The notes under the pieces: generated by a model
Database searches by the model: none
Told to the model about the DNA's origin: nothing
What the model saw: the letters and a program-made list of their open reading frames with translations, nothing else
DNA from: Hirudinaria manillensis
Taxonomy: Eukaryota; Annelida; Clitellata; Hirudinida; Hirudinidae
DNA length: 64,000 nt
NCBI GenBank assembly: GCA_034509925.1
Contig: CM067526.1
Span: 7,090,501 to 7,154,500 of the forward strand
Direction: 5' to 3'
Made by a program: the position numbers and the translations under genes
In this document: positions 7,313 through 60,951 of the stretch, in pieces
Layout of the letters: each line of letters begins with the position of its first letter
How positions within the stretch are numbered: the stretch's first letter is position 1

Positions 7313-7881
7313 ACATTTTTGATGCCTAAAGATCCTGCAATTAATTAGTAGTGGAAAGCATAAATTACGGAGAGACTGGAAGACGTGTGTCATGCTTGAT
7401 TGATTTCGTCTCATAAATACCGATCATGTGAAGTAATTAAGCATTTATTGACGTATAAAGTCATTAAGCATCTTACAGACAAACATCTTCGATGCGAGCT
7501 TCGCGTTTGCAAACCGTTGATTTCCTGCTTCACGTACAATTAACTAACGTAGTCGACTTCAATTCGAAATTGGTTATATAAATAAATTACGAGAAATTCC
7601 CACCACAACCACCACCACCATTATAAACCACCACCAACATCATTAGCAACGGCAACCACAACGTCATCAAACGATGCATTGAAGTAGCAACTTGTCAGGA
7701 AGTGAAGCATCAAGCGCTTATGAAGCTCATCGATCGACAATCAATAAAACAACAACAACAGCCTCAACAAAGTGTCACATTTTGTAGTTTATTTAAATAC
7801 CCAAGGCTTAGTAATTGTTTGCAGAGAAATAAATGAATTTTTAATTAAATTTTCTCAAATTGCTTTTAAATAACAAAATAA
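7313..7881. repeat. Duplicated segment A, first copy
   Basis: 569 nt nearly identical to 9309-9880. The only clear difference I found by eye is one CAA unit in the run near 7750. It is noncoding and holds short ACC and CAA runs. It forms the left end of the first unit of the A-B duplication. Confidence 0.93.
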
Positions 7882-8190
7882 ACGTCTCACGTGGCGTTTT
7901 AATTCTTTTTACAGAAATCTCTCGTTAATCATTCTTGTTGGTGTCCTCATCCAACCATCCTCATCCATTCCATCTGTCCACACATCCATCCATCCATCCA
8001 TCCATCCATGCGGCCATCCATATAATGTTTTATTACTGAAGACAATCAATTGGTCTGAATGAGTCTGAAATATCACGTTAAAGGTTTGTTTTGCCGCAAA
8101 AGGTGGGTGAAAACAGTTCTTGTCGTTGAAGTCCTGGTGATGTTGCTACAGCACTGTTGTTGTTGTTGTCGCCTTGTAACGCTAAAAATG
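7882..8190. other. Unique 309-nt spacer between A and B in the first duplication copy
   Basis: It sits where the second copy has 3.86 kb with the Ig-receptor gene. I see no similarity between the two spacers. It contains a CATC run at about 7983-8010 and no supported gene. Confidence 0.7.
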
Positions 8191-9309
8191 GAGAAGGTTT
8201 TAAATCATGAACGGTCGAATTGTTTTCAATCTCCTCCATCCTTCATTCCTTCATTCATCAGTTACATTCCGGCCCTGCTCCCATTCCGAGTCTTTTGTCT
8301 CTTTCAGCAGTTGTTGTTGGCGGTGTTTCTGGTTTTGCTGGTTTTGGTAATGATGAAGTCGGTAGTTGTTGGAGTGATGATGATGATGACAATGACGACG
8401 ATGACAATGAATATGATGATGATCTTAAGAGAGCCAAATAGCAACAGTTATTAATCGCCTGCAAGTTATAACATCACATAGTATATTAATTTTGTTACCT
8501 GCTAGAAGATAATATTAATATCACCGAAAAATAATTAATATATAAATAAGTTATAATTACAAACCATAGACATGATATTATTAATGCTACCCCTATCAGT
8601 TCTTGGCATCTCCTATGATTTCATGCTTTTAGCGTTCATCCATCCATCACAAACATCGCCATTTTCTCCATTCCTAATGTTTTCAATCAACAAATTTAAG
8701 TTGAAATTAATTAAATTATCGCAATGTTAATAAACGGAATTAAAGGAATAAATAATAAATTATTCTGAAATTTAGAAACTATTCTTAAAAGGTATAGCTG
8801 GAATTTCTTAATTTTTACTTAGATTCCATTTTAAGCGGATCGTCTTTCTGTGACCAAATCCATTGTTGTCGAATTTTTTTAAACTTCAGTCCTCTTCAAA
8901 TCCATGGCAAAGAATTTAAAGAAGGAGATCGAAGTTGTTATTGTTATTGTTGTTGTTGTTGCTGTTGTTTAGTTGATTGTTATTTCATCGTCAAACCGAT
9001 GAGTATTTATACTATGTTTATATTAAATTTGATATATTTGGCGTATTTAAATATTTATTATATTCTGCCCTTTCAAGAAAATTGACAATTAAAATTAGTG
9101 ACACACGCCAAACATCCATCCAATCAATAAACCATCCATCCATCCAATCAACCAAGAATTAAATAAAAATCACAGCATCCAAGTGCATTCAAACAAACTT
9201 CTAAAGCAATTGAAGCTAAATAGTCCATCCTTCCATCCATCCGTCCAACCGATCGTTGATTGGATTTTTCAGTTTAAGAAATATATATATATATAAAATA
9301 AGTTAAATA
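8191..9309. repeat. Duplicated segment B, first copy
   Basis: 1,119 nt nearly identical to 13739-14891. Visible differences are two substitutions (near 9217 and 9260), a missing ~32-nt stretch of CATCC-type repeat and a 2-nt AT length change. It holds short GAT/GAC, GTT and CATC runs. The small reading frames in it are identical in both copies and have no known homologue. It abuts segment A' directly at 9309. Confidence 0.93.
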
Positions 9310-9880
9310 CATTTTTGATGCCTAAAGATCCTGCAATTAATTAGTAGTGGAAAGCATAAATTACGGAGAGACTGGAAGACGTGTGTCATGCTTGATTGAT
9401 TTCGTCTCATAAATACCGATCATGTGAAGTAATTAAGCATTTATTGACGTATAAAGTCATTAAGCATCTTACAGACAAACATCTTCGATGCGAGCTTCGC
9501 GTTTGCAAACCGTTGATTTCCTGCTTCACGTACAATTAACTAACGTAGTCGACTTCAATTCGAAATTGGTTATATAAATAAATTACGAGAAATTCCCACC
9601 ACAACCACCACCACCATTATAAACCACCACCAACATCATTAGCAACGGCAACCACAACGTCATCAAACGATGCATTGAAGTAGCAACTTGTCAGGAAGTG
9701 AAGCATCAAGCGCTTATGAAGCTCATCGATCGACAATCAATAAAACAACAACAACAACAGCCTCAACAAAGTGTCACATTTTGTAGTTTATTTAAATACC
9801 CAAGGCTTAGTAATTGTTTGCAGAGAAATAAATGAATTTTTAATTAAATTTTCTCAAATTGCTTTTAAATAACAAAATAA
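9309..9880. repeat. Duplicated segment A', second copy
   Basis: 572-nt copy of 7313-7881, longer by one CAA unit. It begins at the exact nucleotide where segment B ends, which marks the tandem-duplication junction. Confidence 0.93.
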
Positions 9881-10390
9881 GCAAGTGAAGCACGACAAAT
9901 TAAGCGCGACAAACGAAGCATGACCTTTATGCTTTTTTTTACCTTTAAGGTAGATTTTGCAACTATGGGTTCTGCCCATATGCGTTACGTTGCGTAGGAA
10001 GTGGGAAGGATTATTGTAATTACTAGAGATAAAAATTTAATTAATATTAATAAATTATTGAATTAATTATTCTGATTACAAATGTTTGTTGAGAGAAGCT
10101 TTTCTGATTTATTTCTTAATTAATAACGAGGATTGTTAAAGTGAGCTAGCGGCTACTAAACATACTACCCAACACGCACATCAACTTTATATTTATGCTA
10201 TGCTTCTCTCTTCCGGTTAAAACATGTAGAAATTGATGTTTGAATTTGTTTCGAGTCAAGCAGTTTATTTCTGGTAATGAAAGAAAGCATTTTATTGTAA
10301 AGCAAAAGTAAATCAGATATGAATAGTCAGTTAAAAAGCCTCGATCATTATTGACCTTTGTTGCCTTTGAATTTGTTTCGAGTCAAGCCA
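9881..10390. other. Upstream region of the Ig-receptor gene
   Basis: AT-rich and present only in the second duplication copy. It should contain the promoter, but I see no clear TATA box or initiator. Confidence 0.4.
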
Positions 10391-12372
10391 ATGTTGAAGA
10401 AATATTTTGGTTTCGCTTTTGCTCTTCTCGTATATGGTTAGGCAATCATTTGTTTCTGTTATTTTATCGGAAATTCAATAAAACTCTTTGGAACTGTGAG
10501 AGTGATTTTGATGAGAGCAACAATATTATATCTCAATCCCAAAATTAAAGCTTCATACGGAATAAACTTAATCGAAATTGATTCAAATATAGAACATTAA
10601 AATTGTATTTATTAAAAGATATTCACATTTTTATTCCAGCTTCATATCTTGAGAACTCGGCAAAAACTAAGGCAGTGGTAGCAGTTGATTCAACAATAAT
10701 TGCAGAGAAAGGAATGAACGTTACTATTGAGTGCAACAAATCTTGCAATTTCGATTCTCCACTTTGGACGTATAAACAACCAAATGAAGCAGCTTTTGAT
10801 GACCTCATTGTTGTGGGCAGTGGTTCGATTAGGAACAAAATTCCTGGACGGAAGGATCTGTGGTATAACATCATAAATGGCGCAAACTGTAAGCAGACTT
10901 TGTTTCTACCTGAAATCCAGTTTAAAGCAACCGGAGTTTATGCTTGCTGGGAAGGCTTATTGGCTAAAGGAGTGACAAATGTTATTGTTGTTAGTGAGTG
11001 ATATCGATATGTTATCAGTCTATTTAAACTTTGTTAATGATTATTTTTTTAATTAAAAATTCACAGATACAAACAAAAATTGTTCAATTGAGCCTGATTT
11101 CTCAGACTCAGAAAATATCCTTCTGAAACAAAACGATTCAATCACCATCAGATGTTCTTTCCAATATTCAGCAGATCAATCATGCATCGCTACTCCCATT
11201 TGGACAGATCTCACAGGATACAGAAATTTAACGATATCCGCTAATGATTTCGAAGCCAACATGGATGACAAACACGCATGGATCCATTTCGAACCTGGTG
11301 CTGATATAAGAAATGGAACAAGATTCAACCTATCCGTTGCTTTTAATTGTTTTCTCACAAACTCCAGCGACAAAATTCACAGTTCAGGACGATATTATTT
11401 TGGTCTTATACCATTCAGAATTTATGTTGACGGTATGTCTTAAAATGTGTGTTTAGTTTAGATTTTCGCGGTTGATTTTGGTACTGAATTGGTAATTGGT
11501 ACGGAACAATGTTTGAATTGCAATTTATTTGGTGGAATTATTATGTCAAATACAGAATTCTTTTTAATGAAAATATGTTTTTCTTTTTAGGAATTTCTTA
11601 CAACACCTTAATCATAGTTGGGATCAATGCATCTCTTGCAATCCTCATCATCTTCTTCCTCTTCCTTGTTTTCCTAAAAAAGTTTTCCCAGCTGTGTTTT
11701 GGTAATTATGTAATTTAAATGTTCAACTTAACCTTGAGAACCTCCAATTGGTATTCTATTTTTTATGCGACTTTTATCTCAATTGGTTTAATATCTAAAA
11801 CTTAATTGAGGATAATCTCCTTTTAAGATTAAAGTAACATGATTATCCATTATTTAGTCAAGTATCACCAAGGTTTTACCTCCACTTACTTCCTCTTAAA
11901 AGATATTTATTACTAATTAGCTCGCAGTAATGAAAGGACAAACAATGACATCAGCGATTCGGATGCAACAGCAGTTTCCAAAGTCGAAGGTTACGTTGGA
12001 ATCAGAAAAGACTTACGACCTGAAGATACTAATATCTATTGTAATAACCCGGGGTCCTCAAACTAATTATAGAAGGTCAGGTTTATTGAAAGTTGTCAGA
12101 TGGCTTGGAAGATGTACAATGCTTAATTGATTAAGTCTTGAAATCTGCTGTTTCTCTAACTCTCGCTCTGCTTTCCGAGATAAATCCATTTGTCAAGGTT
12201 CCTAACCAAAGAGTCTGAATAGCACCAATTAATTAATTCTCAAATTATATTGCCACTAAATTTAATTAATTATTAAATTAATTAATCTGCAATATAATTT
12301 TAATTAGTCTTCAATTTATTGGATCTAGGGATCCAACACTATGATGCCATTGGCGATGGGAATTATGAATAG
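10391..12372 (+). CDS. Two-Ig-domain transmembrane receptor with tyrosine-motif cytoplasmic tail
   Basis: Six exons reconstructed by eye: 10391-10436, 10640-10993, 11067-11432, 11591-11701, 11921-12040 and 12329-12372. They total 1,041 nt, about 346 residues. All five introns are phase 1 with GT-AG ends, typical of immunoglobulin-superfamily genes. Exon 1 encodes a signal peptide (starts MLKKYFGFAFALLVY). Exon 2 is a V/I-type Ig domain: first Cys in TIECNKSC, core Trp in LWTY, and TGVYACW matching the D-x-G-x-Y-x-C motif. Exon 3 is a second Ig-like domain with RCSF, IWTD and SGRYYFG; Phe replaces the expected F-strand Cys. Several N-x-S/T sites occur. Exon 4 encodes one membrane helix (SLAILIIFFLFLVFL) followed by basic residues. 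The tail is acidic and Ser/Asn-rich with tyrosines in GYVGI, NIYW, HYDAI and GNYE; two have the Y-x-x-I spacing of SH2-binding ITIM-like sites but lack the usual hydrophobic residue at -2. If the exon 5 donor is not used, the frame ends at 12066. AATAAA lies at 12838-12843. Likely a cell-surface recognition or adhesion receptor; ligand unknown. Confidence 0.75.
12242..12300. repeat. Inverted repeat in the last intron of the Ig-receptor gene
   Basis: Twelve-nucleotide arms (12242-12253 and 12289-12300, AAATTATATTGC and its complement) enclose an AT-rich core of TTAATTAAT words. It could be a small foldback element. Confidence 0.5.
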
Positions 12373-13738
12373 ATTAGGGATCCTGGCAAGCCAGAATGCA
12401 TCGTTGACTGTTTCCATAAAGATGAGTAGTCTACCACCACAGCCCAGTGAACGACATTCAAAAAATGATTCAATGATTTATTTTTACTTATTACCCACTT
12501 TTTAATTGAAATCGTATTCAACCATGAACTTCCAATTAAGCTTTTCTTAATTTGACAATTTAGGTTGATAATTATTGATGATTGACAAGAGTTTGTAATT
12601 AACATTCCATCCAATAGTCCTGCTAGTGGTCATTAACAACATTAATGAATTTCATTCAGTTTTGATGCAGTTTTGTAACGTTTAACAACTTTTCTGTAAT
12701 AATTTATTCATCCCGTTACTAATTCTTACATGTTCACAAAATGGAAATATGAACAAATCTACAATGCCTCCAGAGTCTTTCACCAGGACGATGCAGAAAA
12801 AAGACGTTGGATTATGGAAAGGATTCTCTCAGCGAAAAATAAATAAACTCTTGAAGCAATAATAAAGCAAACTATTAATTTAAAAACTGTGCGGTTGATC
12901 AAGAATTTGTAATTTAACAATGCGTTAAAACAGTGCAATGTAATAATCCATTAATTGCCACTGAGACATGGCAATGTCGATATTGCAAGTTACATTCTTT
13001 TGTCCTCAAAAATTAATCAAACTTAATTAAACTTCTCGATGGAACTCCTAAAATAGCAAATTCAATTTTGAAACTATTAAACTTTTAAAATATTAAATAT
13101 ATCCATTCATGAATAAAATTTTTAAATGGAAGAACATTAATTTCTAAAATGTTCGTTATTAAATATTTAATTGATACAATTTAACAAGGAAAAAAACTTT
13201 AATTTCTTTCGAGGCGCTTTCTTGTCTAAATGACTTTTACTTTCACTGAAACGATGACTAATAGTTAATTCATAAAACAATCTTCTAAAACAGTTATTAA
13301 ATTAAGAAGTTTCCCTTCTGGCAATCGTTATCTGCCGTTTCTTCGAATTAATATAAAATAATTTAAAATTCTGTCAAAACAATTCATAACAACATAGAAT
13401 TAAATTAAAAAAATTTCAGAAAAAAACTTAAATTTGGTTTCAAGCGCCCAAGAATAGAAAGATATTTTGCTGGCCTGGTTGAATGTAGGAAATTGACTTA
13501 ACTACATAATTAACATAAATAACATAATTAAAATTGCTAAATTAACTAGAAGTAAGGGTTACAGCTTGGCATTTGCAGACAATGCAACTCTGCAAATAGA
13601 TTCCTGATAAGAATCAACTATTCAAGTACATTACAGTCGCTAACAGTTCCATAATGTATCTCTAAATTCTCTCAAATTCTTATTTTGCAAAAAGATCTTA
13701 TGCAATATTTAAGAAATAATATTATTGTCTTAAAAACA
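12373..13738. other. 3' flank of the Ig-receptor gene
   Basis: AT-rich. Holds a possible polyadenylation signal (12838-12843) for the receptor and no other gene. Confidence 0.5.
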
Positions 13739-14891
13739 GAGAAGGTTTTAAATCATGAACGGTCGAATTGTTTTCAATCTCCTCCATCCTTCATTCCTTC
13801 ATTCATCAGTTACATTCCGGCCCTGCTCCCATTCCGAGTCTTTTGTCTCTTTCAGCAGTTGTTGTTGGCGGTGTTTCTGGTTTTGCTGGTTTTGGTAATG
13901 ATGAAGTCGGTAGTTGTTGGAGTGATGATGATGATGACAATGACGACGATGACAATGAATATGATGATGATCTTAAGAGAGCCAAATAGCAACAGTTATT
14001 AATCGCCTGCAAGTTATAACATCACATAGTATATTAATTTTGTTACCTGCTAGAAGATAATATTAATATCACCGAAAAATAATTAATATATAAATAAGTT
14101 ATAATTACAAACCATAGACATGATATTATTAATGCTACCCCTATCAGTTCTTGGCATCTCCTATGATTTCATGCTTTTAGCGTTCATCCATCCATCACAA
14201 ACATCGCCATTTTCTCCATTCCTAATGTTTTCAATCAACAAATTTAAGTTGAAATTAATTAAATTATCGCAATGTTAATAAACGGAATTAAAGGAATAAA
14301 TAATAAATTATTCTGAAATTTAGAAACTATTCTTAAAAGGTATAGCTGGAATTTCTTAATTTTTACTTAGATTCCATTTTAAGCGGATCGTCTTTCTGTG
14401 ACCAAATCCATTGTTGTCGAATTTTTTTAAACTTCAGTCCTCTTCAAATCCATGGCAAAGAATTTAAAGAAGGAGATCGAAGTTGTTATTGTTATTGTTG
14501 TTGTTGTTGCTGTTGTTTAGTTGATTGTTATTTCATCGTCAAACCGATGAGTATTTATACTATGTTTATATTAAATTTGATATATTTGGCGTATTTAAAT
14601 ATTTATTATATTCTGCCCTTTCAAGAAAATTGACAATTAAAATTAGTGACACACGCCAAACATCCATCCAATCAATAAACCATCCATCCATCCAATCAAC
14701 CAAGAATTAAATAAAAATCACAGCATCCAAGTGCATTCAAACAAACTTCTAAAGCAATTGAAGCTAATTAGTCCATCCTTCCATCCATCCGTCCATCCGC
14801 CCACCCTCCCATTCATCCATCCGTCCAACCGATCGTTGTTTGGATTTTTCAGTTTAAGAAATATATATATATATATAAAATAAGTTAAATA
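13739..14891. repeat. Duplicated segment B', second copy
   Basis: 1,153-nt copy of 8191-9309 that retains an extra ~32 nt of CATCC-type repeat near 14792-14823. It marks the right end of the duplication. Confidence 0.93.
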
Positions 14892-17797: not shown

Positions 17798-20700
17798 ATG
17801 GATTTCAACGCTGTGTGTGGGATAAGTATTTCTTTATTGAAAAACAAAATCTTAAATCTGAATGGAATGATGAATTAGATTTTAGTTAAAAAGTTTGTTG
17901 CCGTTTTTCTAGCCTGTTGCGGACTCCGAAGATAATTTCAAATCTAACTCGGAATGGGAAGGGTTTGACCTGATATTCTTATTAGAAAATTCTAATTTAC
18001 ATTAATTTGCTCCTATTTGTTGGTTTGTTGTGAATATAATTCCTCAAGTTTTAAACATTAGAGAATTACAAATAAAATATTAGATGTTAAAGTCTTTTAA
18101 CTGTGAGTTTCAAAGCAATAATATGAGAGACAAAAATAACTTACTAGCTGATTCAATTATTCCACTAATCTTTTTTTTGTTTAATTCTTCAGTCTTGCTG
18201 GCAAGCTTGAAGAAGTTTTTCTTCGTACACTTTCCAATCAAAAACTACCCCTTGGAAAATCACCCTCAGTAACTGAAGAGCAGCAATGGAATAAAGTTGG
18301 TGAAAAGTTTCAATTTGGTGACCGGGAATTAACTTTGACTCGACACTGGATCTCTGGAGTCGCTTCATCCTCTCCTGAAAAGGATTTTGATTCGGAGGTA
18401 GTCAGTCCAAAAAGAAAAGAGCAGGGTTGGTTTATTTATTGTTGGAAGTTAATAGAATTCAATCATTTTTTTCTATGATGTCTGTGATATTAATGAATTT
18501 CTGGATTTTATTATAATTAGAAACATCACTTGTTAATAGGAAGCAACAACAATAAACAAATTAGAATTGATGAAACACCAAAAGTTTGGTTGGACTCAGA
18601 GTACACTTCAAACTCCTTTTTTGAACCTGGCACTCTACGATGTGACACTCAAGACTTCCATTTATGTTATGGCCTTAAGGATTTCATTATACTATATTTA
18701 GGTTACCATTCATATGACTTGTGTTTTACCTCAAAAGAGCCTCTACGCACACTTTCGGAGGCCATTGGAAGTCATTGGTAAGTTCACACAATTCATGCAA
18801 TTTGGTTTGGTAAATATTTTGGTCAATTATGCTTATAGATTCAGATTTTTTATTTGGTACATTGTACATAAATAATTAGCATTAGAATTTGCTTACTGTC
18901 ACTGATGACAATGTCATTGGTATTTTTCAGCCAGGTTCCCCTGTTTGTTCAATTTCAATATCCACGTTATTTCCGTGGCATCTTGGAGCATTCTGGCCTA
19001 AAAACATCATTTGAAATGCTTTATCTCCGTAGAGGCTTCCGAAATTTTTACTCAGATTTCATGATATATTTGGTTGGTATTCATGATTAGTATGGATATT
19101 AATTGCCATTTATGAATATTGATAATGGAGGCACATTTGAGGAACCAAATGAAATTTTGCCATAATTCTTATTCATAAGAGCCTAATTGATAATGTAAGC
19201 ATGTGAAATTTTCATGGTTGTTATTCACAAAGAAAAAACATGGGATAGAAGTAATTCCTAATACTACTAAGTTATCTGCAAGGTTCACTTACACCGTCTA
19301 TGAGAGATTATGCTATCCATGTAAAGCCTTACCCCCTGGTATGTTGTTATCTGCTTTTTGATGAATATTTGTCAACATTCTGTTATGTCTGTGTTTCAAC
19401 CAATAAAACATGCACTCTAATTTCATCCCAGAATTAAGTAATTTATATTACTACAATGAACTTACAATGAATTATGTTTCATTATCAAGATAAGTGCTTT
19501 TTAGCATGATATGAAATTAATAATGATTATGTAATTCAATTATTTTACCAATGCGAACAGATTTGGCTTCCTCGGCAACTGATTTTGGAATGAAGGAATT
19601 GTATCATTGGGATGGCGCTGAATCATGGTGAGTGTTAAATGATTATCAGTCCATTCATTTATATTCATCCACCTCATATAGTTGGTCTATGTTTCTGTTC
19701 AGTCACCTCTTACAGCATTTACACTAGTAACTAAACACCATATACCCTTATTTTGTAGCGAGTTCAACCTTTATCTCAATTGGCCAAATTATCAAATCAC
19801 TGCCTTTGATGTGTGAGTGATTATGATTTTGATTAATATTTGAAGCAATTAGCTTGAAATTTTTCATAATTACTCGTAAATGCAATTTCAAGGGATTTAG
19901 ACCTTAATACTGCTCCTGAATGGTGGCTTCAGGCCAAGTTTTCAGATACATCGGAAGTTCCATTGGGTTTGGAATTTATAAAGATTCATTTTTACCAATT
20001 TATATTCCACTTTAGTGATTATTTATATAAATAAGATATCATCATAGGCGTTATTAAATCTGTATTTAATGTTATTTATATAAATAATATAATTCCTATG
20101 GTAACACATAATAATTTATATATGATATTAAGGGGAATGCCTAAGAAGGTTCCTTGATATGTGCTATCCACTACCATCACCAAGTTTCCAAACCCGTTTA
20201 ATAGAAGAATATGTAAAAATGAGTAAGTTACACTTTTAGATTTTAATAAATTGGCATTTTATTGAATTAAATATTGTTTTGAATATTTTGAGATTTAGTT
20301 TATTATCAGTTGAAGTAGATTTAATTGTTTGATATTTGAATAATATCATGAATTCACTAATAATGGACAATGTGTTTGTCTCAACTTATTCCATTCAAAC
20401 CAAATTTTAGAGGCGTCTGTGCATTTTTAAATGACTTGATGTAATTTGATTTTAAGCATTTCATAACTCAATGTATTCATTGCTTCAAAATTGTGGATAA
20501 TTAGTCTTATACTACAACCACTAAATAATTATCTTTAATTGTAGAACTATTCAAACTGTTTCATCAGCATTACATTTTTATCTCATATACTACTGCATTA
20601 TAATAACTTAATTTTAAACATTATATCAGTTGATGGATCCCTGACCAGGCAGTATTTTGGGTCAAAGTTCAGGAATGACATCTTTAAACTCAGCCATAAA

Positions 20701-23700
20701 TCTGAACATTCACTCATTCCTCCTGAATCATTTCATGCAATTCTTAAGGTTGGTTTTGAATTTATAACTTGTGAGGATGGTCATAGCATTTTTCGTTGCA
20801 TAGAGATTGAAATTATACATTGGTAATTTATTCGTGCAATGCTCTCTTTAGGAAAAATGGACCAATTTATAATATGCCGTTAGGTTTAAAAGATTTTTTT
20901 AAATTTTAGTTTTTGTTTTCTCGCTCATCTCAACACTCCTGTGCAGACAACAGTGCATCAATTGCTGAGGAAGTTTATGACTCCTTCTCCCTTCCGAGCA
21001 AAGTAATCTAATTACATAATACTATCTATTATCATGGTGAATGATATTAAATGAGTAAAATATAAATTAAACATTTAGGAAGTATCAAAATACTTTGTGT
21101 CAGCAAAGGATTCTGACCTCATGACTCGATTGGCAGTGTGTTTATGCATTGTCAATAAATATCATGGAGGTATTAGAGCTGTCAGTCAGCTGTGGGAGGA
21201 GTTTATTCTGCAGGCGCAATATTACAAGGACATCACATTCGCTAAAAAGTGAGTATTTTGAGTTTTTTAAAACTAGGGGTGTACCAGAATGTGACTCTGA
21301 AGTCAAAAATCTGATTTTTCCCATGACCAGCAGGATTTGGTCATGTTTGTTATAGTTTAGGCAATATTTTCAGTAAGATAAATTAAATCTGACATTCAGA
21401 TGTAACTTAAGTGGTACCTTGCAAAAGTTGACATTAACACTGCAAATGCTAAATGGATTTGTTTTGCCAATGATGATGGCAATGGATACAGAGCCCTCCA
21501 TATTGTTGAAAGATTGTTTCGAGGAATTGAATCTAACAAAGAAAAAGAAACTTCCAGCAAATGTTGTTCTCGGCACTAAAGAGGGCAGATGTAGGCTCCA
21601 GATTTGTTTGACTGGAATTCTTCATGAAATCCCAAAAGTATCTTCACTATCTACTGGAGACATAAGTCTATATTAATAGCACTGGCCTCCTTTTGAGCTA
21701 AATGCAGAAAAGTCAATCTTTTTGAAGCACAACCTATTCCCGGTTGACAGTCTTGAGGGATTGCAAGCATTTTGCTTATAAGTGCATTTCATTGTTTTTT
21801 ATTGTTAACCAGTAAAATTATCGAATGGTTTTACTCAGTGAGTTCACTGAGAATGTTAACCCAAATAGAATATAATATCCGATCAAATTTAAAGTTGAAC
21901 TTGGGTGAGCTTTGTATGGATTCCACAAAATATAATCCAGCACATCCCGATTTGTTGATGTTCATACTTTATGTATGTACTTTTTAGTTTGATTAACATG
22001 ATCATTTTTTAATATTTTGTGGCCATGGTGACCATAGTTATTATTTAATTAAGCAATCAAATAAATAAGGAATGAATAAAGTTTGTTAATTATTTATCCA
22101 AAGATATAGAAGGAATATGGGTTGCCTGTTGCCACCTTGGAATATTCAGGTAAAACCCACTTGGGTTCTGATGATGATGTTTCATTTAAATGATGACTTG
22201 ATTACTTGGAACTGAATGCCTTTCTGTGATAAATTTGATGTTGGCCTATCAAATTAATTGCTAAATTTGGTAATGGTGTTGAAGTTTGGATGTTGGTTTT
22301 GCAGTAAACTTTGTTTTAAATTCAGTACTCATTATGACCATTCAACAAAATTTAGATTCTGAGATTATCATTGATGGAGCCCTCTGATCTGGTATTTGCC
22401 TTCATGCCTTTTCTCATCCAGTCAGCTGTCACCACCCTTAAAAATTATCGTAAGTTTGATAGACTGCTTTTACTAGACAATTGGTTGCAGTTTTTCATTA
22501 ATGTTACTTAGATTTGGTATGTGATATTGTTATATTACAACAGTGTCTGTAAAAGAATTTTATTATTATTATTATTAAATAATCACTGGAAAAAATTGGG
22601 ATTTTTTTTATCCATCAGCTGAATGCAAGAATTCTTTTCTTAAAGAACATCTCCTCAGAATTGAGGAAAAACTGAAAGATATTTGGTGTGATGAATCAAA
22701 ATTCAAGAGATGTGAGGTGCAAGTTGTTTGAATGTTTCTGATGGGGTTGTGTGGCTAAATAGAATAAGTGAATGCATTTAAGTAGCAAATATTTTATTTT
22801 AATTTTCAAATTATTTGGCATTTGTTTTCCTAAATTTCATATCAAGGAATTCCTTGCCAGGGGTTAATACAAAGTGTAGCATAAATGCTAAATTTGAAAT
22901 TATTTCATATGCTGATGTAAAGCATAATATTATCTACTAATATCATCTAAATCATGACATTAAAATAAACTTCAACCTAACTTTATGCCATGTTATTAAC
23001 AGGACCTGGTACGTTATGTGACACTCATTGAACAGAAATTAACAACCATTCAGTACATATTGGAGAGGTTAAGGCCATATGTTCTGACTCTTAGTGATAA
23101 TCAGAGAATCAGTGAAGAAGAGCTTCAGAATTTTGTCTCTGATCTTGTGGAAAACAGAATAGTTTTAATTAAGAACCATAAAGAGAATCCCTTTGGCATG
23201 CTCATTCATAATTTCTTCCTTGAGAACTTGGAGGTAATGCGATAGTACTTTATGATGTTCTTTGTGGGTAATGCAATCACCTGCTATTTACTGGTTTTAT
23301 TTCTTCAGCCAGATGAAGATTGTTGTGATTCTGATTTTGAATTCGAGGTAATAGTTCTTTATGATAGAGATTTTGGGAAGAAATACATTGCATCTTCACC
23401 CTTCTGTTTTTTCTTCACAGTACTTGAGAGATGCTTGTGATGATCCAGATTCACAAACCAGTTCTATCCAAGAGGCTTGTGTAAGAGAATGCAACCTGTC
23501 TTTGTGATGATGAGTTTGGGGCAAAACATGTGCAACATAATATTTCTCTTCACAGGCTGTAAATGAACCCACAAGTGAGTGTGACACTCACGTCCTTGAT
23601 GAAAAAGTCACTTGGGGCCAACTTGACAAATTTCCAAAACTATGGAGAAAGGAGTATATCTTCACACTTAAGTCTAAGCCGACAGATCCCTCACAGCAAC

Positions 23701-23807
23701 CTTACACTCAGCTACTTCGCTGTTGTTATTCTGGCGAGCTCATGATGGCAGGCGCATTCACCTCTGACTTGACTTTTGGTGAAAGATATGCATCTGGGAT
23801 GTACTAA
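17798..23807 (+). CDS. RAB3GAP1: Rab3 GTPase-activating protein catalytic subunit (RAB3GAP1 orthologue)
   Basis: Exons read by eye: 17798-17812, 17913-17962, 18193-18397, 18521-18777, 18931-19072, 19233-19338, 19561-19627, 19759-19812, 19893-19966, 20133-20222, 20630-20748, 20910-21002, 21079-21248, 21400 to about 21590, then 22356-22449, 22619-22716, 23003-23233, 23309-23347, 23421-23480 and 23556-23807. Phases match across the joins up to exon 14. One or more exons between about 21590 and 22356 are unresolved. About 800 residues are visible; the human protein has about 980. Diagnostic matches are SEWEGLAGKLEEV near the N-terminus, CQVPLFVQ and TSFEMLYLR in the first third, CLCIVNKYHGGIRAVSQLW in the middle, and WRKEYIFTLKSKP plus the C-terminal AGAFTSDLTFG. 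In animals RAB3GAP1 pairs with RAB3GAP2. The complex stimulates GTP hydrolysis by Rab3 and acts as exchange factor for Rab18 in vesicle release, ER shape and autophagy. The first exon (MDFNA) is the least certain. No break was seen, so the gene is probably functional. Confidence 0.93.
21591..22355 (+). other. Unresolved part of the RAB3GAP1 gene
   Basis: The family has about 100-150 residues between the CLC-x-x-N region and the ILRLSLMEPSDLVF segment that I could not place. The frame entering at 21400 closes at 21674-21676, so its donor lies earlier; GTAGGC at 21591 after EGR is a candidate. Open stretches near 21680-21770 and 21827-21950 are candidate exons without a clean splice solution. 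Confidence 0.4.
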
Positions 23808-24759
23808 AATTTATGCATTAAATTGCTGACTAAAAAAGACTGAACATTGTTTGCTTTAACTACTTTCATGGATGTGGTAAATACTACTGGTGTGTTTACG
23901 AGGATATTTTATTTGATTACGTCCTTACTTTATAAAGAGTTATTAGCTGTTTAAATTCATCAATAGCCAAATAGACTAGATTCTAATAATTAGTTGACGC
24001 AAATCTAGTAGCTCTAAGCATTCAGATATTGGGTTTGTTGCGCTCATCTTGCATTTGTTGGGATTTACCTCAGGGTAAGGATTGAGAAGGTTTAATGAGC
24101 ATAGAAAAATTTGTTAATTTGGGAGAGGGGTGAACTGGATATAGCGAATGAGGGATTGTATTTGTCGGATTGCGGAGGTTGTATGGTTGCATGATTGTAT
24201 CACAAAAGTAGCATGGTGCTTTAACGTGATGCCAATGATTTTTAGAAGACTAGGGGTAAATAAAATACAATTTTTTAAAGTATATTATAATTTGAAGTTA
24301 ATTTAATTTAATTGTGGCTGCGAAAAGTTCTATGTAAGAAAATGTCTGAATGTCGTTCCAGCAGAAAAAAAAAACAGTGGTAATAATTCATAAAGTATGA
24401 TAGATTACCTGCCATGTAAGCGTTTTAAATTTGGGACCCTTGCACTAATTTTTTTCTACAAATCAGTTATAATTTTTCAATTTGATTTGAGCTGAAATGA
24501 TTACGAAAGGTTTGCGGTCTACGCTCTCTTAATGACAACACTGGAGTTGTTAATAATAATAATAAATTTTTGGCGTTATTATCTGGTTTTTTTTGTATTG
24601 CTATGATATTGTTATAAAAAAAATTATACACTCTATTTTTGGGGAAAAATTAATCAATGATGCAGTCAATTATTTTACAGAATGTGTGATCTTTGCAATG
24701 TAATATATTGGTAAACATGTCGCTTTTAGCGCGTTGTTCGTAACAAAGTTTAATAAGTC
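23808..24759. other. Intergenic spacer between RAB3GAP1 and the KEN nuclease gene
   Basis: AT-rich. It should hold the 3' UTR of RAB3GAP1 and the promoter of the next gene; neither is clear by eye. Confidence 0.45.
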
Positions 24760-26887
24760 ATGATGGGAGAGGAGTCGATCAAATTAAAATTTACAAATGA
24801 GAAGAATATTTCTAAATTCTCCAAGTTTGTTAAATATGAATTTTTATCGTTATATTACGGCCGTATCAGTTAGATAGATTTTGTCTATCAATTATATACA
24901 CTAAGATTTTACTTTAACATTTAAACCATCAAAATACATTTTTACCTGAAGACCTCACGCCAATCGTTCGCCTGCGTTTCTGAGCTGACATTTGCTAATC
25001 ATCACTCCAATTCGCAATTCTCACATAAAATCTAGACATTTCCCATCATTCCTATTCTAGTTGCATGGTCCTAGACCATGACTTTAAATATTAGGTTGAA
25101 TTTTCTTTTCTTTTTTGAGGCTTAATGGATCATGATTGCTTGGCCAGGAAAATAAATGGCATGACATTCTCTTTTGTAGAGGCCTATTAGAGTCGACAGA
25201 AGTACTAATAAAATCGTATGAATCAGGCGATTCGAGAGCCAGCAGAGAAAAGGACCAATTAACTCGGTTGAAAGACGCAAAGAATACAATCAAATTGATA
25301 GCATATGTTAGTATTCAATCTGATTAGATAATTCGATTATTGAGAACTCAAATTGAAGTAAAGTGATTTGAATTTCATTAATGAAGATGTAATGTTTACT
25401 TTTCAAAAAGTACAATGATTTTTTGCATCTAATGTTGAATTTGAGTGGTGGAAAACTAAATGACATACTTTAATTTAGGATGAACAAGCAGACAAAACAC
25501 TTCTGGTGTTTCCTATGTATGACTCGAACCTACAACGTTTTCTGGAGGATAATAGGGAAACCACAGATTTGATGCAGTCAAAGATCATTGCTCTTCAAAT
25601 CATAGCAGGAGTTAGTGAACTGCACAAGAGAGAGATCGGTAAAAATCTGAATTAACGCTAATGCATTATTATATTTACTTATTCTATAGCCAAATTTAAT
25701 ATAATTATTTATAATTGCAAATGAAGTTCATGGAAATGTTACGCCTTGGAGTATAGTGGTGAGACATGGAGGTGTTAACAACAAAGAAGTATTTGTGGCC
25801 ATCTGTGACTTGAGGAACTCAATAAAGATTGGAAACAAGACCAGCTTGGTATCTTTTTCCAAGGAATTTTGCGCCCCTGAACTCACTGATTCTTCAAAAG
25901 CATCAGTAATTTAGATTAAATTTTGTTTATCACAATTTTATTGTAATTTTATTATATAAAATATAATATATATATTAAATTTTCAGGTAACTACCTCAGT
26001 CGACGTCTACAGTGTAGGCAAAATATTAAAACAAGTCTTAGATTGCCAATGGTATTTGACAAAGGATGGCGAACGAAAAGAGATTGATGTTTTTGATAAA
26101 TCATCAAGTAAAAAATGAATATTAATCAAATTTTCATACATAATTTACATGTTAAATTTACAATAGGAGGGCACACTCTCAATCGGATGTTTTGTGACAC
26201 TCCAGTCAGGGAAAAACTCAAACACATCAGAATGTACCCCTTCTTTTGGAGAAACAATGCCATACCTAAGTTTTATGAAGTTTGTTTATAATTCTACTAT
26301 TTTCTAATTGTTATTTAAGCATACTTTAGAAAGCTATAAATTAACACTTTTCTGGCTTAAATCTTGTTTGACTTAAATTATTTCAGAGTGCTTACAGTCT
26401 GTCTAAACGGAAGAGAACGCTTGAAAATATGTTGTTGAAAGAATCTCATTCATGGAGAATATCAGTCCCTGAAGCACTCATGACTGGTAAATCAATTGTT
26501 GGAAAATCAATTCAATTCTTTTGTTCTTTAAAATATGTTTATATTGTGTTAAAGGAATGGAATCACCATCGGGGAAGAAAATCAAAGAATATTGTGACAA
26601 CTATGAAGATCTTTTACGATTCCTGAGAAACCTGGTAAAACCTGGAGACCAAAATCTTCATTATTTTATTTTTATTTTAATTATCATCTTTTCAGAGTGC
26701 CCATCCAGAAACTAAAGGATCACAACAATTGGAAGGCGGTCGGATCTTTTGGATGAGGAACACATTTCCTGAAGAAACTCTGAAAATGTTTGACATTATT
26801 TTTCCCCACGTCGACAAACTTTTCCACGACGAGTTCATGAATGGCGCCCCTCTAGATTGCCCTCTTCTTGCATTGCAACATCGATGA
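24760..26887 (+). CDS. Sensor-less pseudokinase-KEN endoribonuclease (IRE1/RNase L-like)
   Basis: Nine exons: 24760-24868, 25182-25306, 25479-25638, 25727-25905, 25987-26107, 26167-26279, 26387-26486, 26555-26634 and 26696-26887. All have GT-AG borders and matching phases and total 1,179 nt, about 392 residues. Residues ~1-245 are a kinase fold. The Gly-rich loop is not recognisable; EVLIKSY supplies the VAIK-like Lys. The catalytic loop reads HGNVTPWSIVV, so Asp of HRD is Asn, and DFG is DLR; the APE motif survives as CAPEL. I infer a pseudokinase. The rest is a KEN RNase domain: MYPFFW at its start (compare HPFFW in IRE1) and LLRFLRNLSAHPE, which keeps the Arg, Asn and +5 His of the IRE1/RNase L active site, with a nearby Tyr in EYCDNYE. 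By family knowledge KEN domains cleave RNA when dimerised. There is no signal peptide, membrane segment, ankyrin repeat or luminal domain, so the activating input is unknown and the protein is probably cytosolic. The first exon and its splice are inferred from phase and resemblance to a kinase N-lobe; exons 2-9 are strong. Confidence 0.85.
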
Positions 26888-56385: not shown

Positions 56386-59300
56386 TCAGTTCAATATTCT
56401 TCTTAATATATGTGCTGTCCCACACAAAGCGATTTTCTGCGCCTCAAGAGGAGATGGATTTCCAGGGATGAGATCCAGGTAATCTTTAAATTTCTTTGAT
56501 GTCATTCCTAATGCACCAACAACCACTGGTATTACCTGAGATCTCACACCCCACATTCTTTGGATTTCAATCTGTAGGTCTTTATACTTTGTTAATTTTT
56601 CCATCTCCTTCCGAGGCACATTCACATCATCCGGGACAGCAATATCAATTATTAGACATTTTCTTCTCTTCTTATCATGGTAAGTCAGATCTGGTCTGTT
56701 TGCAGGGATCGTTCTATCAGTTATTATTGGGTAATCCCACATCAACACTCCATGGTCGAACTTTGTAATTCCATTCGGTGTATGTTCGTACCATTTAGTG
56801 GTCAGTGGGATTCCGCATTCCCTGCCGATTCTCCAATGAATATACCTGGCAACTCTGTTATGCCTCTCTAAATATTCCGTTGCAGCCAGCATGCTACATC
56901 CTGATATTAAATGGCTAATGCTTTCAATATGCTGATGGCACATTCTACATAAGCCATCAGCATCTTGATGCAAAATCATCTTTTTAAAATACTTTGTCTG
57001 TAGGGCCTGGTCTTGAGCTGCAATTATTAGACTTTCTGTTTCAGCCTTCAGGTCACTCTTTCTGAGCCATTGAGTACTTGATTCGTTATCTATGTTTGCA
57101 TTGTGAAGATTTTTGATGTATTGCCCGTGCAGCGGTTTCCCTGTAATTCTTTTTAACTTTTCTATTTCCAGGGCATTTTTGAGTTCTTTTCCCAGATGTT
57201 CTTTTGTAACATTCAAATTATATTTCAATTTAATTTTACTTGTTTCTGTCTGCAGGGAAAATTTTTTCCTAGATTCATCCCATTTTCTTACCAATTGAAT
57301 CAATCTTCCATCTGTTGCTGCAATATATTCTCCCAGATTGAGGATGCTTTGTTGATACGCCGATAACAGTTCAATTATACCTCTACCCCCATTATTCCTT
57401 TTCACATACAGTCTGTCAATATCTGCTCCTGGGTGGTGCATTCCATTCATAGTTAGTATTTTTCTGGTTTTTCTATCACACTTTTCTATTTCTGATTTTA
57501 CCCAGGGAATTATTCCAAATCCATATGCAAAAACTGGTACTGCAAAACTATTAATTGCTGTTGTCTTATTTTTGGCACTAAGCTGAGTTTTAAGGATTTT
57601 TCTTAATCGACTGTAATATTCCCTTTTTACCTTTTCTTTCATCAATTTATTATTTAATCCATCCCGTTCCTCCATTCCAAGGTATTTATACATCTCCTGT
57701 ATCTCGAGAGATTTAATTTCTTCTTTTCCATCATCCATGAGTTCAATGCCTTTTGCGACAACAGGTTGTCCATATTTTATTTCAATTGTTGCACATTTTT
57801 CAGTTCCAAATTCCATACATATGTCTTTGCTGAATATTTCTACAACTCTTATAACTTTTTGCATATCCTCATGTTCAGATGTAAATAACTTTAAATCATC
57901 CATATAGAACAAGTGACTAATTTGTTCTTTGTGTATTCTATATCCCAGTCCAGTTCTGTTAATTAAATTAGATAGTGGAATTAATGCTATGCAAAACAAT
58001 AAAGGTGATAATGAGTCTCCTTGAAATATTCCTCGATTTATTCCTATTGTTGTTGTTTCAATGTCACCACCGTTATGTCTTAGAGTCATTCTGGTTTTCC
58101 ATTTCAACATTGACTGAGCAATAAACTGAACTATAACATCATTAACATGATAAATCTGCAAAGCTCGAATAATCCATGAGTGAGGGATACTGTCAAATGC
58201 TTTTCTGTAGTCGATCCAAGCAATATTTAGATTCTTTTTAAATTTCTGAGAGTTTTGAACTATCATCTGACTAATAAGTAACTGATCTTTGCATCCTCGG
58301 GATCCTTTTCTACATCCTTTTTGTTCTTCTGGCAGAATGCTGTTACTTTGAAAGTGGTTGTATATTCTTTTTGATATAGCTGCTGTTAATATTTTATATG
58401 TTGTTGGCAGGCATGTGATGGGTCTGTAATTCTTTGCTTTAGACGTCTCCTGTGATTTTGGCAACAAATATGTAATTCCTTCTGTCAGCCAAGTTGGTAT
58501 CTTAGATGGTTCCTTCATTATTTCATTGTAAGCATCTGTTAAGTGTTTATGTAGAGCAGTTAACTTTTTAAACCAGAAGTTGTGAATTTTATCTATGCCT
58601 GGACTTTTCCAATTATGTGACTGATTAATTATACCACTGATTTCTTCAACTTGAAAATCCCTCCATTCATATGCATTTAAATTTGCATATATTTCTTCTT
58701 CATATTTAATCCACTCTGCATCAGAATTATAATGTGTTTCCTTTTCTAAGATGTTTCTCCAAAATGTGTCAACTGTATTTAATTTAGGTGCATCTACTAT
58801 TTCAATCTGCTTCGAACTAATGCTTCTGTAAAATTTCTTGGTATCATTACGAAACATTCTGTTTTGATGGTATTGTTCACTTCTTTTACTGTACCTTCTT
58901 AGTCTCTGAGCTTTCGCCTGCAGTTTCATTGTGACATCTTGTTCAAGTTCATTAATTTGGTTTAAGGACATTGTGTTCATCCCCATCTGTTTCTTGTGAT
59001 CCAGATTTCCATTTTTAAATTCCTTTATCATAGATAATTGTTTTCTGTATCTGTTTATTGTTTTCTGGATTCTCATCTTCCAGTTAGCAACTTTAAATCT
59101 CACAGCAACACGTTTTCTTTCAAATTTTTCACCTGCAATCAGAGATGCCACTGTATACACTAATTCATTTATCTTTGTCAAGTCTAAAGTCATTTCTGTT
59201 GAAACTTTGAGGAGTATTTGATTTGCTAGTTTTATTGTCTCTTCAGCTTGTCTTGGGCTTGTAATTTTATTCAAGTTTTTCCTCTCATGTATTTTAATCA

Positions 59301-59943
59301 TCTTGATCTGATTGAATTTTGAGATTAATTTATTTTCAGCTTCTATCATTTCTTCTGATTTGAACTCTCTGGTCAATAAACTTTCTTGTCCTGAGTCTGC
59401 TTGGTGTTGTTTGTAGATCAAATTTTCCTGCTGAGAATTTGAGTCATCTTCACTCTGACATACCTCTGATCCACAAATTTGTTCCACATCTAAGTCTGAG
59501 CCTCTGAGTTTTCGCTTCACATCTTCATCAATTTCTGCTAAATCAAATTCTGAAAGTTTCTTCTCTTTTAAAATATATCTTCTGTGATTGCTCAGATTGT
59601 TTGGATTCATGCCTGGGAATATTTCAGGATTTCTGCTTCTCCAGATATTGTAGGTAGCTATTGTTACATTGCCGTTGTTTGATTCCTTTGCAAAATAATA
59701 TGACCAGATTACATCTTTATACTGTTCGTTTGTCCATTTCTGTCTTCTTTTATTTACACATTTCACATCATCATTAATTTTATTTTCATTTTTCATCATC
59801 ATGTTTTTCTCCAGAGAGAATGCAAGATTGTCTTTAATTTCATTTTCAATGCTATCCTTTTTTCTTGAGTCATTTACCTTAATCAATTTCAAATTCTGTG
59901 GCTTCTCATGTCTATCAGCTTTATTAATGCTTAACTCTTGCAA
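56386..59943 (-). CDS. LINE ORF2: reverse transcriptase with C-terminal PD-(D/E)XK endonuclease
   Basis: About 1,185 codons. Order: charged N-terminal region (~1-400), reverse transcriptase with YRPITCLPT, IAWIDYRKAFDSIPHSW, GIFQGDSLSPLLFC and the catalytic FYMDDLKLF near residue 680, then a zinc knuckle CRMCHQHIESISHLISGC (C-x2-C-x8-H-x4-C) near 1000. Near 1085 is the endonuclease core RPDL followed by KCLIIDIAV, with downstream KEMEKLTKYKDL. This is the restriction-like endonuclease layout used for target-primed reverse transcription. The frame starts at a non-ATG codon: it is open from inside the end of ORF1 (60-odd nt overlap), the ORF1 stop lies 3-5 nt before the listed start, and the first in-frame Met is about 47 codons in. 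Translation may rely on reinitiation or frameshifting. No internal stop is seen. Confidence 0.92.
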   Translation of the reverse strand: MQELSINKADRHEKPQNLKLIKVNDSRKKDSIENEIKDNLAFSLEKNMMMKNENKINDDVKCVNKRRQKWTNEQYKDVIWSYYFAKESNNGNVTIATYNIWRSRNPEIFPGMNPNNLSNHRRYILKEKKLSEFDLAEIDEDVKRKLRGSDLDVEQICGSEVCQSEDDSNSQQENLIYKQHQADSGQESLLTREFKSEEMIEAENKLISKFNQIKMIKIHERKNLNKITSPRQAEETIKLANQILLKVSTEMTLDLTKINELVYTVASLIAGEKFERKRVAVRFKVANWKMRIQKTINRYRKQLSMIKEFKNGNLDHKKQMGMNTMSLNQINELEQDVTMKLQAKAQRLRRYSKRSEQYHQNRMFRNDTKKFYRSISSKQIEIVDAPKLNTVDTFWRNILEKETHYNSDAEWIKYEEEIYANLNAYEWRDFQVEEISGIINQSHNWKSPGIDKIHNFWFKKLTALHKHLTDAYNEIMKEPSKIPTWLTEGITYLLPKSQETSKAKNYRPITCLPTTYKILTAAISKRIYNHFQSNSILPEEQKGCRKGSRGCKDQLLISQMIVQNSQKFKKNLNIAWIDYRKAFDSIPHSWIIRALQIYHVNDVIVQFIAQSMLKWKTRMTLRHNGGDIETTTIGINRGIFQGDSLSPLLFCIALIPLSNLINRTGLGYRIHKEQISHLFYMDDLKLFTSEHEDMQKVIRVVEIFSKDICMEFGTEKCATIEIKYGQPVVAKGIELMDDGKEEIKSLEIQEMYKYLGMEERDGLNNKLMKEKVKREYYSRLRKILKTQLSAKNKTTAINSFAVPVFAYGFGIIPWVKSEIEKCDRKTRKILTMNGMHHPGADIDRLYVKRNNGGRGIIELLSAYQQSILNLGEYIAATDGRLIQLVRKWDESRKKFSLQTETSKIKLKYNLNVTKEHLGKELKNALEIEKLKRITGKPLHGQYIKNLHNANIDNESSTQWLRKSDLKAETESLIIAAQDQALQTKYFKKMILHQDADGLCRMCHQHIESISHLISGCSMLAATEYLERHNRVARYIHWRIGRECGIPLTTKWYEHTPNGITKFDHGVLMWDYPIITDRTIPANRPDLTYHDKKRRKCLIIDIAVPDDVNVPRKEMEKLTKYKDLQIEIQRMWGVRSQVIPVVVGALGMTSKKFKDYLDLIPGNPSPLEAQKIALCGTAHILRRILN

Positions 59944-59945
59944 GT

Positions 59946-60827
59946 CTATAAATTCTGTTTCTTGATCAGGACCACATGGAATGAACCTGGTGTTCCTCTT
60001 ATTTTATATATAAATCTGTCGGCTTCTCCAGTCTTGGCTTTTTCTTCTTTAGCTTTTTCAATCAACTTTTTACAACTTTGTCTATCTTCAATTGACAAAT
60101 CATGACTGACAATTAATTTCTTGAACTTCATTAGACCTTTCAGTTTATAACAGCTCTCAAGTATCATGTTTTTAAGGCTGAAGTTGTAAAACTTTACAAT
60201 CATGGGTCTATCTTTACCTTCAATTTTCTTTCCAATTCTGTTCATTTGCAAAACATCTTTTTGATGATCAAATTCAATATCAAATGCTTTTAACAATTCT
60301 GTAAGAAATTCCTTGTCATTACTTTTTTGGTCAGACATACTCTCTTTCAAGTTGTAGAAAACAAGATTGTTTTTTCTTTGCTCCCTGTCTTCTTTTATTT
60401 CAGTTGCAGTCTTTGTTTTGATAACTGAGTCTTGAACTGATTTCACATTTCTGTTCATTTCTTGAACATTGGTTTTAAATAAATCAGTCCATTTTTCTGT
60501 TTCCTTTACTTTGTCCACACTTATTTCATTCAACTTGTTGCCAAATTGTTTGAATTCCGCATTTAATTTGTCCAACTGAAGTTTCCAGTCTTTCATCTCA
60601 TTCATTTGTTTTTGGATCATACTTTCGTGTGCTGTTCTTTCTTCTATCATTGATTTGATTTGAGCAATATCCTTGGTTATGTTTTCAATGTTTTCGTCAA
60701 CTTGATAACATTCTACAATTTTTTTCAGCACGTCTACATTTTCTTTTACACATTTATCACAGATGTGTAGTCCGATCATAGTTGCCGAAGCCGCTATTTC
60801 CTTTCTAATTCGGACCGCGTCCGTCAT
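59946..60827 (-). CDS. LINE ORF1: RNA-binding coiled-coil protein
   Basis: 293 codons from ATG at 60827 (ATGACGGACGCG on the minus strand). The N-terminus has a possible metal site HICDKC at 21-26. About 40-145 is Glu/Lys/Gln-rich with heptad-like hydrophobics, a probable coiled coil for oligomerisation. RKNNLVFYNLKES at about 153-165 begins an RRM-like fold, followed by RPMIVKFYNFSLKN and a C-terminal basic part (LSIEDRQSCKKLIEKAKEE, then YKIRGTPGSF) resembling the L1 ORF1p C-terminal domain. By family knowledge such proteins coat the element RNA and act as nucleic-acid chaperones. It ends at TAG and overlaps the open ORF2 frame. Confidence 0.85.
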   Translation of the reverse strand: MTDAVRIRKEIAASATMIGLHICDKCVKENVDVLKKIVECYQVDENIENITKDIAQIKSMIEERTAHESMIQKQMNEMKDWKLQLDKLNAEFKQFGNKLNEISVDKVKETEKWTDLFKTNVQEMNRNVKSVQDSVIKTKTATEIKEDREQRKNNLVFYNLKESMSDQKSNDKEFLTELLKAFDIEFDHQKDVLQMNRIGKKIEGKDRPMIVKFYNFSLKNMILESCYKLKGLMKFKKLIVSHDLSIEDRQSCKKLIEKAKEEKAKTGEADRFIYKIRGTPGSFHVVLIKKQNL

Positions 60828-60951
60828 TTCAACTTTTTTCGAGTGTGGCGTATAAAAGTAATAAATTTATTAAAATTTATATCGATAATATACGCTAAAA
60901 CAATCGAATATTAATGAAGTGCGCTGCAGAGATCAGCACGTATGAGCGTTA

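Follow-up and report, generated by a model that had tools for sequence, protein, structure and literature searches.

Insertions produced by template switching (FoSTeS/MMBIR) typically combine an ectopic donor copied with its introns, near-blunt joins with 0–1 nt of microhomology, a small deletion at the target and a short tandem duplication in the neighbourhood. Among receptor families, the KIR and LILR genes of the vertebrate leukocyte receptor complex form clusters of short immunoglobulin superfamily (IgSF) receptors whose tails carry tyrosine motifs and are truncated in some members. KIR genes, which are clustered, vary in content. Botryllid receptors, according to the available part of one source, have V-type Ig domains, carry Y-x-x-I/L/V as a core motif and vary in gene content between haplotypes; the Botryllus FcoR proteins are 520–610 aa long, have sushi and C2-type Ig domains and are paired with fester genes (PMC12065747).

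Here we describe a locus of the leech Hirudinaria manillensis that can be set beside all three. The stretch analysed (henceforth the window) comprises 64,000 nt at C1:7090501–7154500 of a 148.4-Mb genome in 23 contigs, with a G+C content of 32.5% and no Ns. According to the available part of its description, the assembly was built from 23.80 Gb of HiFi reads (mean length 18.73 kb) and consists of 13 scaffolds of 14.76–8.30 Mb (N50 11.46 Mb), 9 small scaffolds and the mitochondrial genome (PMC10671345); from the 23.80 Gb we compute a depth of about 160-fold. Our preferred reading, to which we give a probability of roughly 0.77, is a duplicative, templated insertion of a complete receptor gene, together with the interpretation of that gene given below; the figure is separate from the question of a single event.

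A tandem duplication with a gene in one copy

Self-BLAST matched segment A (7313–7881) to A' (9309–9880), the two differing by one 3-nt indel and by no substitution over 569 nt, and B (8183–9251) to B' (13731–14799) at 99.6% identity. By alignment, B and B' remain alike as far as 9309 and 14891; they show 2 substitutions over 1,119 nt, and in addition B has a deletion of 32 nt and an AT run differs by 2 nt. Repeats of 0.57 and 1.1 kb at more than 99% identity rule out chance. A and B are separated by 309 nt in the first copy (7882–8190) and by 3,858 nt in the second (9881–13738), and the receptor gene is confined to the second spacer. All of this agrees with the original prediction, which had put the near-identical pairs at these positions, the spacers at 309 nt and 3.86 kb with a gene in one only, and the join of B to A' at a single base: B ends, and A' begins, on base 9309. 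The idea that A and B are separate units was discarded, as they are one segment split by the event. A, the 309 nt and B make up a single continuous segment of 1,996 nt, in which no gene was recognised, and 1,996 nt is also the period of the tandem repeat. The second copy carries, in place of the inner 309 nt, an insert of 3,858 nt that contains a complete receptor gene.

7313..7881, plus strand: segment A, left side of the 1,996-nt segment (first copy)
7882..8190, plus strand: 309-nt middle, with a (CATC)n tract at 7983–8006; absent between A' and B'
8191..9309, plus strand: segment B, right side of the same segment (first copy), with a 32-nt deletion that the other copies lack
9309..9880, plus strand: segment A', left part of the second copy
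9881..13738, plus strand: ectopic insert, an end-to-end copy of C1:2446897–2450737 (gene d1)
13739..14891, plus strand: segment B', right part of the second copy, continuous with the flank of the segmental duplication

The locus as a whole lies in a segmental duplication that occurs in four near-identical copies, with more diverged pieces on C1, C6 and C12.

2071 to at least 26500 of the window, plus strand: part of the window belonging to the segmental duplication, excluding the second copy and its insert
C1:7.170–7.189 Mb, plus strand: sister copy, with A-B at 7.175 Mb
C1:7.403–7.416 Mb, plus strand: sister copy that begins inside B
C1:8.299–8.316 Mb, minus strand: sister copy, with A-B at 8.311 Mb

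The sister copy at 7.403–7.416 Mb is uninformative on the insert since it begins inside B. The receptor is absent from both informative copies (2/2), which read A-320-B at 7.175 Mb and A-309-B at 8.311 Mb, the (CATC)n tract differing in length between copies; receptor gene content thus differs between paralogous copies within one genome. Several variants are common to A and A' (7636) or to B and B' (14293, 14468 and a 1-nt gap after 14530) and absent elsewhere, indicating that the tandem copies are each other's nearest kin and that the duplication arose at this locus. The tandem copies differ at 2 of 1,688 sites, as against 12 of 1,725 in comparison with the 7.175-Mb copy (p = 0.013) and 11 of 1,725 with the 8.311-Mb copy (p = 0.022), the sites for these sister-copy comparisons having been counted by hand from the alignment and then tested. 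The tandem duplication is therefore younger than the spread of the large duplication, and the earlier claim of a recent tandem duplication stands.

The receptor gene

The gene has five exons separated by phase-1 introns and an open translation of 340 aa; within the insert, 510 nt precede its start codon and about 1.67 kb follow its stop.

10391..10436, plus strand: exon 1, start codon and a signal-peptide-like stretch (by eye)
10640..10993, plus strand: exon 2, domain D1, placed in the Ig V-set family by its family profile
11067..11432, plus strand: exon 3, domain D2, with four invariant cysteines
11591..11701, plus strand: exon 4, putative transmembrane segment (hydrophobic stretch by eye)
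11921..12066, plus strand: exon 5, putative cytoplasmic tail with one YxxI motif remaining and the stop within the LTR
12040..12338, no strand given: solo LTR (TG...CA), with target duplications CTAT at 12036–12039 and 12339–12342

The predicted product is a single-pass membrane protein whose Ig V-set domain is accompanied by a cysteine-rich second domain and a shortened tail. It differs from that of array gene d1 by one residue, located in the transmembrane segment, and there are two insert-d1 substitutions in coding exons (11620 and 11685). The solo LTR lies in the last coding exon and ends the tail early in both genes; the same site is filled in d1 and empty in a second array gene, d2. Elsewhere in the genome copies of this LTR occur as pairs 0.6–1.5 kb apart, from which it belongs to a short LTR element. 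An ITAM-type tail (YxxI/L x6-12 YxxI/L) is absent from the window gene and from d1, each having one YxxI motif. The window protein probably serves as a recognition receptor of immune type whose signalling is reduced.

The donor of the insert

A whole-genome DNA search with positions 9881–13730 (3,850 nt) matched C1:2446897–2450732 (d1) end to end at 98%, 4.65 million bases away from the window. The same search gave a second match at C1:2432508–2436095 (d2), at 92–96% and without the LTR. Over about 40 bases past each end of the insert d1 continues to resemble d2, while the window shifts abruptly to A' or B'. Given that the likeness of d1 and d2 runs on past both ends, the array is the source, and the direction of copying, from array to window, is shown by these flanks.

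The insert is not uniformly similar to d1. Its 5' part (9881–11468) has 1 substitution in 1,588 nt, which does not differ from the 2 in 1,688 between the tandem copies (Fisher p = 1.0), and its 3' part (11469–13738) has 39 in 2,249 nt, a sharp change (p = 2.8e-8) that also exceeds the divergence between the tandem copies (p = 6.7e-8). In that 3' stretch d2 agrees with the window against d1 at 14 sites, and with d1 against the window at 21. Either the donor was an allele or recombinant differing from the assembled d1 downstream of D2, or the 5' part was converted later. The 3' part is too divergent, so that the argument from equal age for a single event draws on part of the insert only.

Origin of the rearrangement

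The rearrangement is real, recent and of a known kind. Its joins are as follows.

9308..9310, no strand given: J1, end of B and start of A'; base 9309 (A) is common to both, a 1-nt microhomology
9880..9881, no strand given: J2, A' and insert; base 9880 (A) fits both, a 1-nt microhomology
13738..13739, no strand given: J3, insert and B'; about 0 nt of microhomology, with TAAAAA common just upstream

An (AT)7 run (9281–9294) lies 14 nt before J1. No target-site duplication or terminal repeats were seen by eye at the insert ends (9880|9881 and 13738|13739), and the target site lost 309 nt; insertion by a transposon was rejected on these grounds.

In the proposed mechanism the 1,996-nt A-309-B segment, itself within a low-copy segmental duplication, would have been copied in tandem, and in the second copy a 3.86-kb DNA copy of the array gene at C1:2.447 Mb, introns included, would have replaced the 309 nt. 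We give about even odds to the idea that a single repair event based on replication, by microhomology-mediated template switching, made all three junctions. In it the polymerase would have jumped back from the end of B to the start of A, then to the receptor array and back to B; the fork may have stalled at the CATC tract and the AT run, which lie close to breakpoints. A single serial switch accounts for tandem copy, loss and insertion together, and the similar divergences fit, but junction microhomology of 0–1 nt is also compatible with end joining. The same junctions and the same donor would be expected if a tandem duplication came first and a later break in the second copy lost the 309 nt and was patched from the array. 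That order of events, which the separate breakpoints of the two operations and the varying length of the CATC tract within the 309 nt would suit, we consider possible but clearly the weaker option, as no unfilled tandem duplication was seen among the segmental copies and the 5' insert and the tandem copies are indistinguishable in divergence. Less probable again is that the insert was first an allele in a single A-B segment and that unequal exchange with an insert-free chromosome made the tandem; this predicts exactly the observed order, A-309-B followed by A'-insert-B', but requires a non-homologous exchange at 9309, and the copies differ at just 2 of 1,688 sites.

Two further explanations concern whether a gene was gained here at all. 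The original prediction had allowed for loss or gain, and of these it is gain that held: two complete A-B sister copies are without the gene, and its source is at C1:2.447 Mb. Three near-identical copies beside the window make it conceivable that the gene was once in all of them and was differentially lost, but both complete gene-free copies keep the same 309 nt at the insert site, and array sequence runs past the insert ends only at 2.4 Mb; loss from the sister copies was rejected and has next to no probability. The prediction had also suggested two haplotypes assembled in tandem. An assembler might have joined these, or a stray copy of an array gene, given that the evidence is one assembly and that the 3' part of the insert could be a d1 allele. 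Such an artefact is very unlikely, as the joins are sharp, non-homologous and without overlap, the flanks left of A and right of B are unrepeated, the window has no Ns, and single HiFi reads of the mean length given in the available part of the assembly paper should span the whole 7.6-kb structure (PMC10671345).

The receptor array

The array at C1:2.367–2.467 Mb covers about 100 kb in a single orientation and has 25–26 paralogues: pairing of the two domains gives 25 genes on one strand (one with a partial D1) and a weak candidate at 2.419 Mb. A genome protein search returned 69 matches, all on C1, with 56 in the array, 4 (the exons of the window gene) in the window and 9 weak ones at 2.50–2.52 and 2.97–3.02 Mb; the window gene is the sole copy that it detected outside C1:2.36–3.02 Mb. 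In grouping many related membrane IgSF genes whose products have signalling tails, the array agrees with allorecognition or histocompatibility loci of the fuhc and Hydractinia ARC type; the window locus, which has one member, does not. What had been called a receptor locus in the window is thus a single outlying copy, and the receptor locus is the array. As a separate observation, a homeodomain query gave 11 near-complete matches (those of at least 88 bits among 64 matches) with 78–92% identity on C2, C4, C9, C10, C12 and C13, which by their sequence we take for many Hox-like genes of a bilaterian. Their number led us to drop a ctenophore origin, suggested at first by the 13 chromosomes, since ctenophores are not known to have Hox genes; the tunicate marker GH6 gave no match, a result without weight as no control gave a signal either.

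The D1 alignment contains 23 of the 26 domains, the window one included, and the D2 alignment 22 of 26. Searched against the PDB with an E limit of 1, the D1 family profile hit 1,020 distinct sequences; among the best 60 of these it matches IgV chains, with polymeric Ig receptor as the best (E 1.1e-7). In Pfam, with an E limit of 0.01, 8 of the 23 D1 domains hit V-set, and the window D1 searched alone had no Ig match. By the family profile D1 is accordingly classed as Ig V-set. For D2, none of 22 domains matches Pfam at E up to 0.01, and there were 0 PDB matches at E up to 1. D2 is the better conserved domain (41–96% identity to the window copy, against 28–90% for D1). Among 11 close pairs dN equals or exceeds dS in 3 for D1 (one a tie) and in 0 for D2, a mixed picture that we do not read as diversifying selection. 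Tails were recovered above the score cut-off for 12 of the 25 array genes, d1 among them, and fell below it for the other 13; of the 12, at least three Yxx[ILVM] motifs are present in 10, ITAM-like spacing in 8 and an ITIM-like motif in 3. Among the first 12 of 626 papers matching terms for leech or annelid Ig receptors, taken by title and start of abstract, no description of such an array was found.

Comparison with known systems

The window offers a very young, readable case of a receptor gene leaving its array, with donor, target and three joins in one assembly, and the rearrangement shows how such receptor genes can spread. It also leads to a leech array whose V-set receptors in many cases have ITAM-like tails; should that array prove polymorphic, the molecular basis of annelid graft rejection or immune recognition would become testable. 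The window insertion as such does not support a self-recognition locus with presence/absence variation. Speculatively, and with the odds well against it, the array could be a leech counterpart of the leukocyte receptor complex and a polymorphic self/non-self locus, templated insertion could seed new loci, and the window copy could be a newborn, presence/absence-polymorphic one with a curtailed tail.

Like template-switch insertions of the FoSTeS/MMBIR type, the window insert has an ectopic donor, introns, 0–1 nt of microhomology, a 309-nt loss and an adjacent tandem duplication; unlike them, the copied piece is a complete open gene cassette from a receptor array, and a replication origin is what we infer for it. 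With the fester and FcoR genes of Botryllus, as far as the available part of their description goes, the leech array shares multigene membrane receptors, Ig V domains and Y-x-x-I/L/V tails. The window protein differs from FcoR, in that same part, in having 340 aa and a V-set domain beside an unmatched cysteine domain, and its family forms a single-orientation array. Like KIR and LILR, the leech genes lie in a tandem array, encode short IgSF receptors that have tyrosine motifs in their tails and include truncated-tail members, but the leech is a protostome and the likeness to vertebrate genes beyond the IgV family is one of architecture alone. In that structural sense the array resembles both allorecognition and leukocyte-receptor clusters.

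Segmental duplication around the receptor gene

The A-B-A'-B' tandem duplication is surrounded by a larger segmental duplication, of which there are four near-identical copies, all on chromosome C1. Downstream of the tandem duplication, window positions 18501-26500 are given as 100% identical to the copy at 7.18 Mb and as 92% identical to a minus-strand copy at 8.30 Mb. The extent of this region and the frames seen in it are:

2071 to 26500 or beyond, segmental duplication
23000-23242, plus strand, exon-like frame inside the segmental duplication
25479-26304, plus strand, kinase-like frames (likeness judged by eye)

The frame at 23000-23242 gave a weak, sub-threshold Pfam match to the Rab3-GAP catalytic C-terminal domain (E 0.015), and none of the five frames in 25479-26884 had a Pfam match above the curated cut-off.

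Receptor array and solo LTR

The array of V-set receptor paralogues (C1:2367000-2467000; loci L026-L029 and L036-L065) holds 25-26 two-domain genes with YxxPhi tails, all in the same orientation and mostly spaced 2.6-4.3 kb apart. Remote relatives occur on either strand at 2.50-2.52 and 2.97-3.02 Mb of C1. Within the last coding exon of the window's receptor lies one further feature:

12040-12338, solo LTR

It belongs to a short LTR element, with numerous copies across several chromosomes in a whole-genome DNA search, the matches including paired copies separated by 0.6-1.5 kb.

Other elements

At the right end of the window, where G+C is locally high (47%), one of two LINE-type frames reaches the window end:

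56389-60003, minus strand, LINE-type reverse transcriptase (Pfam RVT_1, E 2.6e-29)
59949-60866, minus strand, additional frame overlapping the preceding one
62023-63999, minus strand, LINE-type reverse transcriptase (RVT_1, E 1e-33), reaching the end

Elsewhere in the assembly (G000), COX1 gave three matches:

C3:11667942, short match
C23:31-1371, match on the apparent mitochondrial contig
C9:3026446-3027786, full-length match on a chromosome

The C9 and C23 matches score equally. Either the gene was recently copied into the nuclear genome, or a contig has been misplaced.
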